Source: Rhodovulum visakhapatnamense (lineage in GTDB: Bacteria > Pseudomonadota > Alphaproteobacteria > Rhodobacterales > Rhodobacteraceae). Taken from it: a DNA stretch of 58,450 nt. Under the pieces are notes generated by a model, which saw only the letters and a program-made list of their open reading frames with translations, was not told the DNA's origin and made no database searches. The stretch covers positions 1 to 58,450 of the forward strand of contig NZ_SOEB01000028.1 of NCBI RefSeq assembly GCF_004365965.1. Direction: 5' to 3'. Both the position numbers and the translations under genes were made by a program. Shown in pieces: positions 23,368 through 25,681 of this stretch (the stretch's first letter is position 1; each line of letters opens with the position of its first letter).

Positions 23368-23676
23368 TCAGGCTGACGTTTCGGCCGTCAGCCAGGCCGC
23401 CGCCTCGGGCGTCGTTTCGACCGTTTCCCAGGTGATGACCGGCAGGTCGTGGGGATGGGTCTCGGCGATCAGCGAGACCAGCGCGGCGCGGTGGCCGTCG
23501 TCGGTTTTCAGCGTCAGCTGCAATTCCGGCTCTTCGTCGATGCGATCCTGCCAATGAAACAGGCTGACGACGCCGGGCAGGATATTGGCGCAGGCCGCGA
23601 GCCTGCGGTCGAGCGCGGCGCGCGCGATGGCCCGGGCGCTGTCGATGTCGGGGCAGGTCGTGACGACGTGGATCAT
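23368..23676 (-). CDS. cutA: CutA-like divalent cation tolerance protein
   Basis: The 102-residue protein matches CutA in length and motifs: VTTCPDIDSARAIARAALDR at the start, RLAACANILPGVVSLFHWQ, EPELQLTLKT and HPHDLPVITWE. CutA forms very stable trimers related to the PII fold. Its role in metal tolerance is established in enterobacteria but less clear elsewhere. It lies directly upstream of the GTA promoter region, in the opposite direction. Confidence 0.92.
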   Translation of the reverse strand: MIHVVTTCPDIDSARAIARAALDRRLAACANILPGVVSLFHWQDRIDEEPELQLTLKTDDGHRAALVSLIAETHPHDLPVITWETVETTPEAAAWLTAETSA

Positions 23677-23895
23677 TTCGTTTTTCCGAACCTGTCAGGA
23701 TTGAGAGCGCCATCATAGGGGCGTTCGTGGCCCGATACCATTCGACAAGCGGGGACTGGGCGCGTTCGTGTCGGGCCGGTGCGTGAAGCCCGGTTCGCGT
23801 GCCGCTCGACGGATGCGGGCAGTCTTGGGGCATGGGGCATCGGACGCAGGGCGGTTTGCGGGATACCTGCCTGGGAAGCCGTCGGTTATGCGCTG

Positions 23896-23950
23896 TTAAC
23901 TTCTTGTTAGCATTAAACTTCTTGACTCTGCGAACGGTCTGGGGTATACC
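23896..23950 (+). promoter_or_regulatory. GTA cluster promoter with CtrA-like box
   Basis: TTGACT (23922-23927), a 17-base spacer and TATACC (23945-23950) form a good sigma70-type promoter, predicting a start near 23957. Upstream, TTAA-N7-TTAG at 23896-23910 matches the CtrA box TTAA-N7-TTAA in 7 of 8 positions. A near-direct repeat, TTAACTTCTTG (23896) and TTAAACTTCTTG (23913), abuts the -35. CtrA is a known activator of the R. capsulatus GTA, and GafA binds its promoter. Direct binding of either here is inferred. Confidence 0.65.
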
Positions 23951-23957
23951 TTACGGC

Positions 23958-24065
23958 ATGCTGGAAGACGTGGGTTTGGCGGCCCGGGGTACCCCCGGAG
24001 GCCGCCTTTTTGTTGTCTTCTTCCTGCGCCGGGCAGACCAATCAGGCAGATGCGATGACAGATGA
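23958..24065 (+). CDS. Potential 35-codon leader ORF across the GTA terminator
   Basis: An ATG at 23958 falls at the predicted transcription start, so it would be leaderless. The frame (starts MLEDVGLAARGTPGG) runs through the whole terminator hairpin and stops at 24063-24065, overlapping the g1 start codon (24055) by 11 bases. It has no Shine-Dalgarno. If translated, ribosomes would disrupt the hairpin and let polymerase continue into g1. Whether it is translated is unknown; an open frame of this length can occur by chance. Confidence 0.3.
   Translation: MLEDVGLAARGTPGGRLFVVFFLRRADQSGRCDDR
23978..24011 (+). terminator. Strong intrinsic terminator in the GTA leader
   Basis: GGCGGCC (23978-23984) pairs with GGCCGCC (24000-24006), and the interior can also pair (CCGGGG with CCCCGG, with a shifted base). 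TTTTT follows at 24007-24011. The T-run on this strand only makes it a plus-strand terminator. No other plus-strand gene lies closely upstream, so it would end a transcript of about 55 nt from the GTA promoter. Confidence 0.75.
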
Positions 24066-24411
24066 TCCCTCTCCTGAAGCGGGCGGCGCGGCGGCGTGGG
24101 CGCTGCTTGAGGAAGCTGAAGAACATTACAGGCGCACGATCCGCGCCCTGAACGAACTGATCGAGGAAATCGAGGCCGGCAATTCCGAACGTGCCCGCAT
24201 GCTGCGCGGGGCGTTGAACGATCTCGGGAAGGCGGCACAGACGGCGTTCGACGAACGGCAGCGGGTTGAAAGGCGGCTGAATGCGGAAAGCGAGTCCGAA
24301 GGTGGAATCCAAGCGCTTGATCTTGAACAGGCCCGCCTTGAAGTCGGGCGCCGACTGGATCGCCTGCGCAACACCCTAGATGCAGGCCGCGTTTCTGGAG
24401 GGGTTGAATGA
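24055..24411 (+). CDS. GTA small terminase (g1)
   Basis: The protein has 118 residues and is mainly helical and charged (EEAEEHYRRTIRALNELIEE then RRLDRLRNTLDAGRV). It occupies the g1 position of the R. capsulatus GTA, which has been identified as the small terminase that helps load DNA into heads. Sequence similarity in this family is low, so the call rests on position, size and helical character. I use the ATG at 24055; it overlaps the large terminase gene by 32 bases. Confidence 0.8.
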   Translation: MTDDPSPEAGGAAAWALLEEAEEHYRRTIRALNELIEEIEAGNSERARMLRGALNDLGKAAQTAFDERQRVERRLNAESESEGGIQALDLEQARLEVGRRLDRLRNTLDAGRVSGGVE

Positions 24412-25681
24412 CTCGGCGCTGCTGGCGCTGCCTTATCTCTTCGAGTTCTGGGCGTTGCCGCATCAGCTGCCGCCCGAGGGCGACTGGCGTTCTTGGGTGA
24501 TCATGGGCGGCCGGGGTTCGGGCAAGACGCGGGCCGGATCGGAATGGGTCCGGTCGCAGGTCGAGGGCGCAAGGCCGCTTGACGAAGGCCAGGCCCGGCG
24601 GGTGGCCCTGGTGGGCGAGACCGTCGACGAGGCCCGCGAGATCATGGTGTTTGGCGAAAGCGGCATTCTGGCCTGTTCGCCTCCCGACCGGCGGCCGAAC
24701 TGGGAGGCAACGCGGCGGCGGCTGGTCTGGCCGAATGGTGCGGTGGCGCAGGTGTTTTCGGCGCATGACCCGGATTCCCTGCGTGGTCCGCAATTCGATG
24801 CCGCCTGGTCGGACGAGCTGGCAAAATGGAAGCGGGCCGAAGAGACCTGGGACATGTTGCAGTTCGGGCTGCGGCTGGGGCAGGCGCCGCGGCAATGCGT
24901 GACGACGACGCCCCGCAACGTGGCGGTGCTGAAGTCGATCCTGGCGAACCCCTCGACCGTGGTTACCCACGCGCCGACCGAGGCCAACCGGGCCAATCTG
25001 GCAGCCTCGTTCCTCGAGGCGGTCCGGACCCGTTATGCGGGCACCCGGCTCGGGCGGCAGGAGCTTGACGGCGTGCTTCTCGACGAGTCGGACGGCGCGC
25101 TTTGGACGCTGAGCCGGATCGAGGCGCTGAGGGTCGACGAGGCGCCGCCGCTGGACCGGATCGTGGTTGCCGTCGATCCGCCGGTCACGAGCCGCGACAG
25201 CTCGGACGAATGCGGGATCGTGGTGGCAGGGGTCCGGATGCAGGGGCCGCCGCAAACCTGGTGCGCCTATGTGCTGGAGGATGTCAGCATCAGCGGCGTC
25301 GCCCCGACGGCCTGGGCGACGGTCGCGATCGAGGCGATGGAGCGCTATGGCGCCGAGCGGCTGGTTGCCGAGGTCAATCAGGGGGGCGATCTGGTCGAGA
25401 CGGTGATCCGCCAGCTCGATCCGATGGTGCCCTTCCGCGCGGTTCGCGCCACGCGGGGCAAGATCGCCCGGGCCGAGCCGGTGGCCGCGCTTTACGAGCA
25501 GGGCCGGGTCAAGCACCTGCGGGGCCTGCAGGTTCTGGAAGAGCAGATGTGCCACATGACGGCGCGGGGCTACGAGAGCCAGGGCAGCCCGGACCGGGTG
25601 GACGCGCTGGTCTGGGCGATCAACGACCTGATGATCGCCCCGGCGGCGCATTGGCGGCGGCCGCGGGTGCGGGGTCTTTAG
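24380..25681 (+). CDS. GTA large terminase (g2)
   Basis: This 433-residue packaging motor has Walker A GGRGSGKT at residues 43-50, the Walker B acidic pair in WSDELAKW (S144-E146), a coupling TTTPRN motif, and the RNase H-like nuclease with D266 in VVAVDPPVTS and later acidic residues in SPDRVDALVWA. In GTAs it fills heads with about 4 kb of host DNA without strong sequence preference. It is full length, and its start overlaps g1. Confidence 0.93.
   Translation: MQAAFLEGLNDSALLALPYLFEFWALPHQLPPEGDWRSWVIMGGRGSGKTRAGSEWVRSQVEGARPLDEGQARRVALVGETVDEAREIMVFGESGILACSPPDRRPNWEATRRRLVWPNGAVAQVFSAHDPDSLRGPQFDAAWSDELAKWKRAEETWDMLQFGLRLGQAPRQCVTTTPRNVAVLKSILANPSTVVTHAPTEANRANLAASFLEAVRTRYAGTRLGRQELDGVLLDESDGALWTLSRIEALRVDEAPPLDRIVVAVDPPVTSRDSSDECGIVVAGVRMQGPPQTWCAYVLEDVSISGVAPTAWATVAIEAMERYGAERLVAEVNQGGDLVETVIRQLDPMVPFRAVRATRGKIARAEPVAALYEQGRVKHLRGLQVLEEQMCHMTARGYESQGSPDRVDALVWAINDLMIAPAAHWRRPRVRGL

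Follow-up and report, generated by a model that had tools for sequence, protein, structure and literature searches.

Why should a strong predicted terminator lie between the promoter of a GTA operon and its first gene? The question is raised by Rhodovulum visakhapatnamense, in which the window (the whole stretch of DNA analysed, 58,450 nucleotides, positions 1 to 58,450 of contig NZ_SOEB01000028.1) carries such an arrangement directly before its GTA cluster. An earlier note had read it as an attenuator, which stops transcription by default and lets RNA polymerase into the operon if a leader ORF is translated or if an antiterminator acts. The features relevant for the argument are:

23368 to 23676, minus strand: cutA (PF03091), divergent, upstream of the element
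23896 to 23910, plus strand: CtrA-like box TTAA-N7-TTAG, read from the sequence, one mismatch to TTAA-N7-TTAA
23922 to 23927, plus strand: -35 element TTGACT, matching the consensus at 5 of 6 bases
23930 to 23939, plus strand: conserved spacer block GCGAACGGTC, candidate binding element for an antiterminator (the C-terminal domain of GafA)
23945 to 23950, plus strand: -10 element TATACC, matching the consensus at 4 of 6 bases
23957 to 23962, plus strand: CATGCT at about +1 to +6, -10-like, candidate sigma-dependent pause element
23958 to 24065, plus strand: leader ORF of 35 codons (ATG at 23958, stop at 24065), judged incidental
23964 to 23970, plus strand: 5' arm of helix P0, pairing with 24014 to 24020 (window fold; family-wide covariation)
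23978 to 24006, plus strand: P1, the terminator hairpin (fold; terminator predicted across loci; covarying pairs)
24007 to 24011, plus strand: U-tract TTTTT, predicted RNA 3' end, giving an RNA of about 55 nt
24014 to 24020, plus strand: 3' arm of P0 (window fold; covariation)
24024 to 24036, plus strand: P2, a short hairpin CTGC...GCAG (window fold; 4 pairs, weak here)
24055 to 24411, plus strand: g1, at the small-terminase position, first gene of the GTA operon (ORF, ATG at 24055)
24380 to 25681, plus strand: g2, terminase large subunit (PF03237/PF17289), overlapping the end of g1 and used as the anchor for comparison

What the note had read from the letters was borne out in the window: the promoter with its 17-nt spacing, the CtrA-like box next to it, the strong hairpin with a T-run (23978 to 24011), and an ORF that runs from its ATG through the hairpin and across the g1 start. 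This ORF sits within a longer GTG-start frame (23799 to 24065). Throughout, +1 (offset 0) is the C of the CANGCT block, 23957 in the window, a position predicted from the promoter. P1 alone (23978 to 24006 plus TTTTT) folds with -24.4 kcal/mol (z -2.72), a stability reached by 1 of 200 shuffles. For the leader as a whole (109 nt), the stability is nothing unusual, with a z of -1.26 and 26 of 200 shuffles reaching it. A generic promoter scan, which requires a T at the sixth -10 base, listed no promoter between 22500 and 40500. A generic terminator scan, with 8 terminator-like sites against 9.5 expected, did not list the P1 hairpin, probably because its stem is bulged. As these scans listed neither feature and found no excess of sites, the single window was unable to settle the matter.

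Related loci were anchored on the terminase, found in 16 of 16 genomes of the genus and searched for across the family in 295 genomes, roughly one for each genus, of which 241 passed a cut of E <= 1e-100, and 80 loci were taken from named genome contigs. After orienting and de-duplication, the 125 loci gave 114 distinct upstream regions; L017, which has no terminase motif, was excluded. An iterated profile of the element matches 112 of these 114 GTA loci, the exceptions being L114 and L123. The counts anchored at +1 have n = 111, as the match of L069 is truncated and this locus was excluded from them.

A terminator (called at dG <= -12 with at least four T in five) is predicted between +20 and +75 in 107 of the 111 loci. 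Among the controls, the same criteria picked out 6 of 333 windows from coding DNA and 3 of 333 mononucleotide shuffles, as well as 3 of 111 windows upstream and 4 of 111 on the opposite strand. Given such low controls, the element is real, directional and near-universal in these loci. The U-tract starts at a median of 49 nt past the +1 base, and g1, by a simple ORF rule, at a median of 95 nt. No Pfam family matched g1, and its name rests on its position and on published work (PMC6854486). The note had proposed to align the region across related GTA clusters, and expected conservation of both the hairpin and the leader frame; promoter and hairpin are conserved, the leader frame is not. Judged from the aligned sequences, it is the promoter and the terminator that form a deeply conserved element, to which the leader ORF does not belong.

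Conservation within the element has three peaks. The first covers TTGAC and the spacer block: in 107 of 111 loci, TTGA precedes CANGCT by 33 to 35 nt, and, in a set aligned on the nearest TTGA (110 rows, three of which sit on a wrong TTGA), a C follows directly in 107. In the same set, the spacer block reads CG-N2-CG-N-TC (C in 94 and G in 103 loci, then C in 102 and G in 88, then T in 81 and C in 82, of 110). The second peak consists of the first two -10 bases (T in 105, A in 107 of 110). The third and strongest spans +1 to +18, CANGCT(A/G)GAAGA-N-GTGGG, and contains the most conserved block of the element, CANGCT at +1 to +6, with A at the second position in 110 and T at the sixth in all 111 loci. 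This block is unpaired in the consensus structure.

The CtrA-like box behaves differently and was ruled out as a general part of the element, since it is limited to a clade and not family-wide. Upstream of the promoter, TTAA-N7-TTAA is found without a mismatch in 16 of 111 loci, where shuffles give 0.15, and with at most one mismatch in 32 of 111 (2.4 in shuffles), among them 15 of the 16 in the Rhodovulum genus set. The exact matches are in L003, L004, L006, L008, L009, L010, L011, L013, L015, L016, L019, L022, L042, L052, L099 and L115. In Rhodobacter capsulatus, CtrA is described as not binding to the GTA promoter (PMC6363796). Within the Rhodovulum clade, direct control by CtrA may occur.

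The leader RNA is predicted to form one long hairpin, in which P0 (GAAGUG../..CAUUUC) encloses P1 and the U-tract, followed by a second, P2. In much of the family, P2 is CUCGUGC/GCAUGAG, with changes on both sides in 7 of 7 pairs. Across 100 loci aligned to a covariance model (alignment A3; mostly close relatives were left out, L142 was added, and 100 of 100 matched), pairing was kept in 94.4% of the cells compared to 84.9 in shuffles; this alignment was fitted to the structure and is therefore biased toward it. Changes on both sides were present in 23 of the 26 pairs, and double-change cells numbered 184, compared to 33 in shuffles and 17 to 49 when the structure was slid. P0, P1 and P2 were also recovered from a structure-free MAFFT alignment of 49 loci. 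In the seed alignment (A1; 49 of 60 candidates), P2 is invariant because the loci were picked for an intact P2, and a further alignment (A2) was excluded, as it contained eight opposite-strand hairpin matches. In an Rfam search of the window and of L052, L067, L122 and L110, the only matches at the gathering score were two tRNAs, both in the window; the best match below threshold between 23850 and 24120 was RcsR1, with 16.8 of 60 bits.

The covariance model of promoter and leader (R1) finds one site in the R. visakhapatnamense genome (62.4 bits, E 2.3e-15; next best E 1.15) and a site in 212 of the 295 family genomes, which are about one per genus and not phylogenetically independent. Of the 241 genomes that pass the terminase cut, 189 are positive, as are 23 of the 54 failing it, with 34 of the 54 assigned by inference. 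Seven of the 23 were fetched, and a terminase motif lies beside the site in six and is absent in one, so the cut was too strict for some genomes. From genomes without an R1 site, 16 loci bearing a terminase were inspected. A smaller search gave E < 0.01 for L147, L148, L149, L153 and L155. Inspection by eye showed a hairpin followed by at least TTTT in L148 and L149, and by TTT only in L153 and L158; in the other twelve it is lost or degenerate. The element is thus common in the family and not obligatory. Among L114, L123/L152 and L146 to L161 there are GTA loci which kept the terminase while lacking an intact terminator.

The family also carries a candidate regulator. DUF6456 (PF20057), the domain of the GafZ-type regulators, occurs once in the R. 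visakhapatnamense genome (G000:C25:60647-61054), in a protein with an N-terminal HTH, encoded by gafA, and it occurs in 269 of the 295 family genomes. The element is present in 208 of the 269 genomes with PF20057 and in 4 of the 26 without it (6 of the 26 inferred), an association with a Fisher p of 5e-10, uncorrected for relatedness or for gaps in the assemblies. In the gafA promoters of R. visakhapatnamense and R. capsulatus, there is no spacer match with fewer than four mismatches and no match to the start pattern with fewer than five. The same two promoters carry the CtrA-type site described in PMC6363796.

One family genome, G410, we take to be that of R. capsulatus, going by its capsid and by what is known of the SB1003 genome; the matching parts of both published primers are present in it. 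Its capsid protein is 100% identical over 380 aa to that of PDB 6tb9/6tba. Another genome, G292, had a single match to a published primer and was rejected as R. capsulatus, the second primer being absent. The R. capsulatus GTA locus (L142) carries the whole element (R1, 96 bits), in the order TTGAC, GCGAACG spacer, CATGCTAGGAGAGGTGGG, hairpin, TTTTTT and CTCGTGC...GCATGAG. We therefore regard the RcGTA promoter and the one in the window as the same, and the GafA binding and start site described for R. capsulatus map onto the element (PMC6363796, PMC9638019). The only R. capsulatus probe reported to be bound by full-length GafA was pGTA2, 76 to 125 bp upstream of g1 (PMC6363796), and the C-terminal GafA domain is reported to bind the same place (PMC9638019). 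With the first ATG of the g1 frame (offset 95) as start codon, pGTA2 covers offsets -30 to +19, and a start at the second ATG (101) shifts this by 6. The spacer block, the -10, the start and CANGCT thus all fall within the probe, and the hairpin lies outside. GafA binding at the spacer block is consistent with this result, although the bound probe covers the start region too.

Promoter-proximal loading of an antiterminator is known from phage Q proteins and from AlpA, where a -10-like sequence in the initially transcribed region, a binding element in the -35/-10 spacer and an intrinsic terminator downstream are described (PMC9371919, PMC6606751). At the sequence level, the element shares with Q (lambda, 21, 82) and AlpA the -10-like sequence, a candidate spacer element and a predicted downstream terminator (PMC6606751, PMC9371919), and its spacer block and CANGCT occupy the places of the two loading elements. 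It differs in that the candidate antiterminator, GafA, is unrelated in sequence, and in having the conserved P0-P1-P2 leader. The second relevant system is the GTA of Caulobacter crescentus, in which GafZ lets polymerase cross a terminator and requires a spacer element (PMC11150451). The C-terminal domain of GafA is homologous to GafZ, a shown antiterminator, and the authors of that study suggest that R. capsulatus GafA might antiterminate too (PMC11150451).

The likeness to Caulobacter GafYZ includes a DUF6456 regulator, a GTA terminase operon, a candidate element between -10 and -35 and a terminator to be crossed (PMC11150451). The details are different. The account of Caulobacter has a palindromic ZBE, a degenerate -35 (AATCAT), IHF and an upstream GafY site, a start codon at +251, and, past the first gene, three repeats of 150 bp that make up the terminator (PMC11150451). 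In contrast, the element described here has a near-consensus -35, a leader of about 98 nt that is structured and conserved, a -10-like block, and one intrinsic terminator about 20 nt past +1. The ZBE palindrome GCGCCCG-CTGGCGC is absent from the spacer, which reads CTGCGAACGGTC... in the window and CG-N2-CG-N-TC in the family. Repeats like terGTA are absent after the first gene in the window, where the overlap of g1 and g2 leaves no room for them.

On the strength of the three counterparts in Q/AlpA and of the GafZ findings, we take the element to be a promoter-proximal, Q-like termination gate opened by GafA, a reading to which we give a probability of about 0.64. Its starting point is the observed conservation, structure and geometry of the cis-element, together with the presence of gafA. 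RNA polymerase would start near 23957 from a housekeeping-type promoter and would stop by default at P1 and the U-tract, producing an RNA of about 55 nt instead of a GTA mRNA of about 15 kb. The -10-like CATGCT probably holds the polymerase, still bearing sigma, in a promoter-proximal pause. The C-terminal (GafZ-like, DUF6456) domain of GafA, bound at the spacer block and/or the start region, would then load onto the paused polymerase, which would become resistant to termination, so that the operon is read only in cells making GafA. In lambda, the terminator lies further from +1 than it does here. This course of events retains much of the attenuator of the earlier note, namely the promoter-proximal terminator, the expected stop after about 55 nt and the branch in which an antiterminator acts; control by translation of the leader is the part that finds no support here.

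Several observations speak against the gate. GafZ is modelled without similarity to Q or AlpA, the Caulobacter ZBE palindrome differs from the spacer here, and in Caulobacter polymerase meets the terminator only past the first gene (PMC11150451). For R. capsulatus, the literature accounts for activation by contact between GafA and omega (PMC9638019; discussion in PMC11150451). Some lineages do without the terminator (4 of the 16 R1-negative loci keep the hairpin). In addition, a bare Q-type gate needs neither P0 nor P2. This is the main gap, and the reason for weighing an explanation based on RNA.

According to that explanation, P0, P1 and P2 themselves (in the manner of put or EAR), or a ligand or protein bound to them, would set readthrough. 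P0 and P2 covary and persist even though a terminator needs P1 only, and 66 of 111 loci have CTCGTGCGG at the start of P2, a sequence that runs past the stem. Yet the helices are nested and not mutually exclusive, with P0 lying outside P1, and no competing antiterminator helix was seen: the best fold of the first 75 nt without P1 is worse by a median of 27.8 kcal/mol (minimum 18.3, n = 107). Furthermore, conservation is highest in the unpaired +1 to +10 and reaches the untranscribed spacer DNA, which a device made only of RNA does not need, and the Rfam search gave no match. We thus consider control by the RNA itself unlikely, although it is the strongest of the alternatives to the gate. P0 and P2 may stabilise the 5' end, aid the loaded complex or affect g1 translation, and P2 with CTCGTGCGG could function in g1 translation or bind a protein. 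The 3' arm of P2 adjoins the likely ribosome-binding site of g1 (in L142 at about 2150 to 2190, and in many family loci).

Alternatively, the RNA of about 55 nt could itself be the product, a trans-acting sRNA made by default with the GTA mRNA arising by readthrough. There is a precedent in the Rhodobacteraceae: UpsM, in the leader of the dcw cluster, resembles the element in having a small ORF, as is typical of the family, and a strong intrinsic terminator ahead of a large operon; it differs in its length of 206 nt, in its gene cluster and in that no promoter-embedded antiterminator elements are noted in the text available (PMC5089854). A conserved single-stranded 5' end would also suit an sRNA. 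However, the most conserved region suits a function in promoter DNA equally well, and the words 'GTA' and 'terminase' are absent from the main texts of the sRNA surveys of R. pomeroyi (PMC4809877) and P. denitrificans (PMC5107571). A functional sRNA seems to us quite improbable.

The terminator could also be an insulator that keeps readthrough from upstream genes out of a lethal operon. A co-directional mltG lies upstream in 76 of the 111 loci, and the terminator is present in 75 of these 76; but it is also present in 32 of the 35 loci without an mltG match, including the window and L002, both of which have a divergent cutA. As cutA reads away from the element, it does not need the terminator. 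Upstream genes were assigned by tblastn with cutA and mltG, because open-frame tests are unreliable in GC-rich DNA, and mltG matching covered up to 1.5 kb upstream (less than 1.5 kb in 47 of 111 loci). The element is independent of the upstream gene. Besides, a terminator located downstream of the promoter has to be crossed by the GTA transcripts as well, and insulation has very little probability as its function.

Equally improbable is that the hairpin does not terminate in vivo and merely stabilises the 5' end of the mRNA, while the conserved DNA serves only initiation activated by GafA, the step at which all control would then lie. Published R. capsulatus work does support activation through contact of GafA with omega and recruitment (PMC9638019; discussion in PMC11150451), and P0 would shield the 5' end. 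Nevertheless, the T-run directly after P1 is kept, and on one strand only, whereas a stabiliser needs no U-tract.

The least likely explanation is the other branch of the earlier note, leader-peptide attenuation, in which ribosomes on the 35-codon ORF would disrupt the hairpin and let polymerase pass: the ORF exists and crosses the hairpin, and UpsM indicates that leaders with a terminator and a small ORF occur in the family (PMC5089854), but the ATG at +2 is present in just 54 of 111 loci (AAG in 46), permits only leaderless initiation, and opens frames of 4 to 147 codons that extend beyond the g1 start in 28 of the 54, with no competing helix to be freed, so that we give it almost no credence. 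The bases of this frame do not form a coding pattern: A stands at +10, a third codon position, in 108 of 111 loci, and at +9, a second position, in 90, with G in 20; the third position at +7 does vary, between A and G. The leader ORF most likely arises as a by-product of the conserved CANGCT block.

Returning to the Q-like gate opened by GafA, its novelty has to be seen in the light of the available literature. The statement of the earlier note that no attenuator is described for GTAs is in part outdated, as antitermination by GafZ is known for the Caulobacter GTA (PMC11150451) and antitermination is indicated for the Bartonella GTA by a title cited in PMC13236601. As far as seen in these sources, neither is the element described here. 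Among the open-licence matches listed for GTA and antitermination, these two were found and no description of the present element. Likewise, for the model RcGTA, no description of a terminator or a conserved leader RNA before the structural operon was found among the open-licence matches listed. The words 'terminator' and 'hairpin' are absent from the main texts of PMC6363796 and PMC9638019, and 'antitermination' from that of PMC9638019.

If real, the gate would supply the missing target for the suggestion that GafA antiterminates (PMC11150451), and would explain in simple terms how an operon that is lethal and has a near-consensus -35 is kept off. The mechanism would be testable in R. capsulatus with few base changes. 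More tentatively, and with rather less confidence than in the gate as such, we propose that the archetypal GTA family runs on a Q-like gate in which GafA, a two-domain protein unrelated to Q, is both initiation activator and processive antiterminator, with the P0-P1-P2 RNA taking part in the loading or termination-resistant complex. In that case, the rare-producer behaviour would be set partly by elongation and not only by initiation. It is plausible that the gate acts as a second lock on the lethal operon and so explains why few cells make GTAs; an alternative source of this heterogeneity is the positive autoregulation reported for gafA (PMC6363796).

Model R1 also provides a compact signature for finding the GTA clusters of Rhodobacteraceae. 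Phages were rejected as a source of the element, with all 226 phage records that have a terminase match being under 60% identity. In IMG/VR, at least 120 stretches matched the start-region pattern, with 80 loci among those listed. The full element is present in 21 of the 40 that were tested, and no contig among these 21 exceeds 19 kb (L206, L212, L213, L218, L222, L226, L232, L233, L238, L240, L241, L247, L249, L253, L263, L267, L270, L271, L273, L280 and L282). None of the tested contigs above 30 kb has it in full, and L260 has the hairpin only (19.8 bits). A length of 11 to 19 kb suggests that the 21 contigs are GTA clusters of bacteria entered in the database as viruses.

In other alphaproteobacterial families, some hairpin with a T-run lies between -700 and -150 of the terminase match in 14 of 28 loci, mostly not at a promoter. 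Among the 28, of which 11 were read by eye, L187, L189, L190, L197 and L200 have a GC-rich hairpin and T-run before the small-terminase position, some with promoter-like sequence directly before. These five loci, which may be phage or GTA relatives, possibly represent an independent or older version of the gate. By eye, the hairpin follows soon after a YATNGTC-like start region in L189, L190 and L200.
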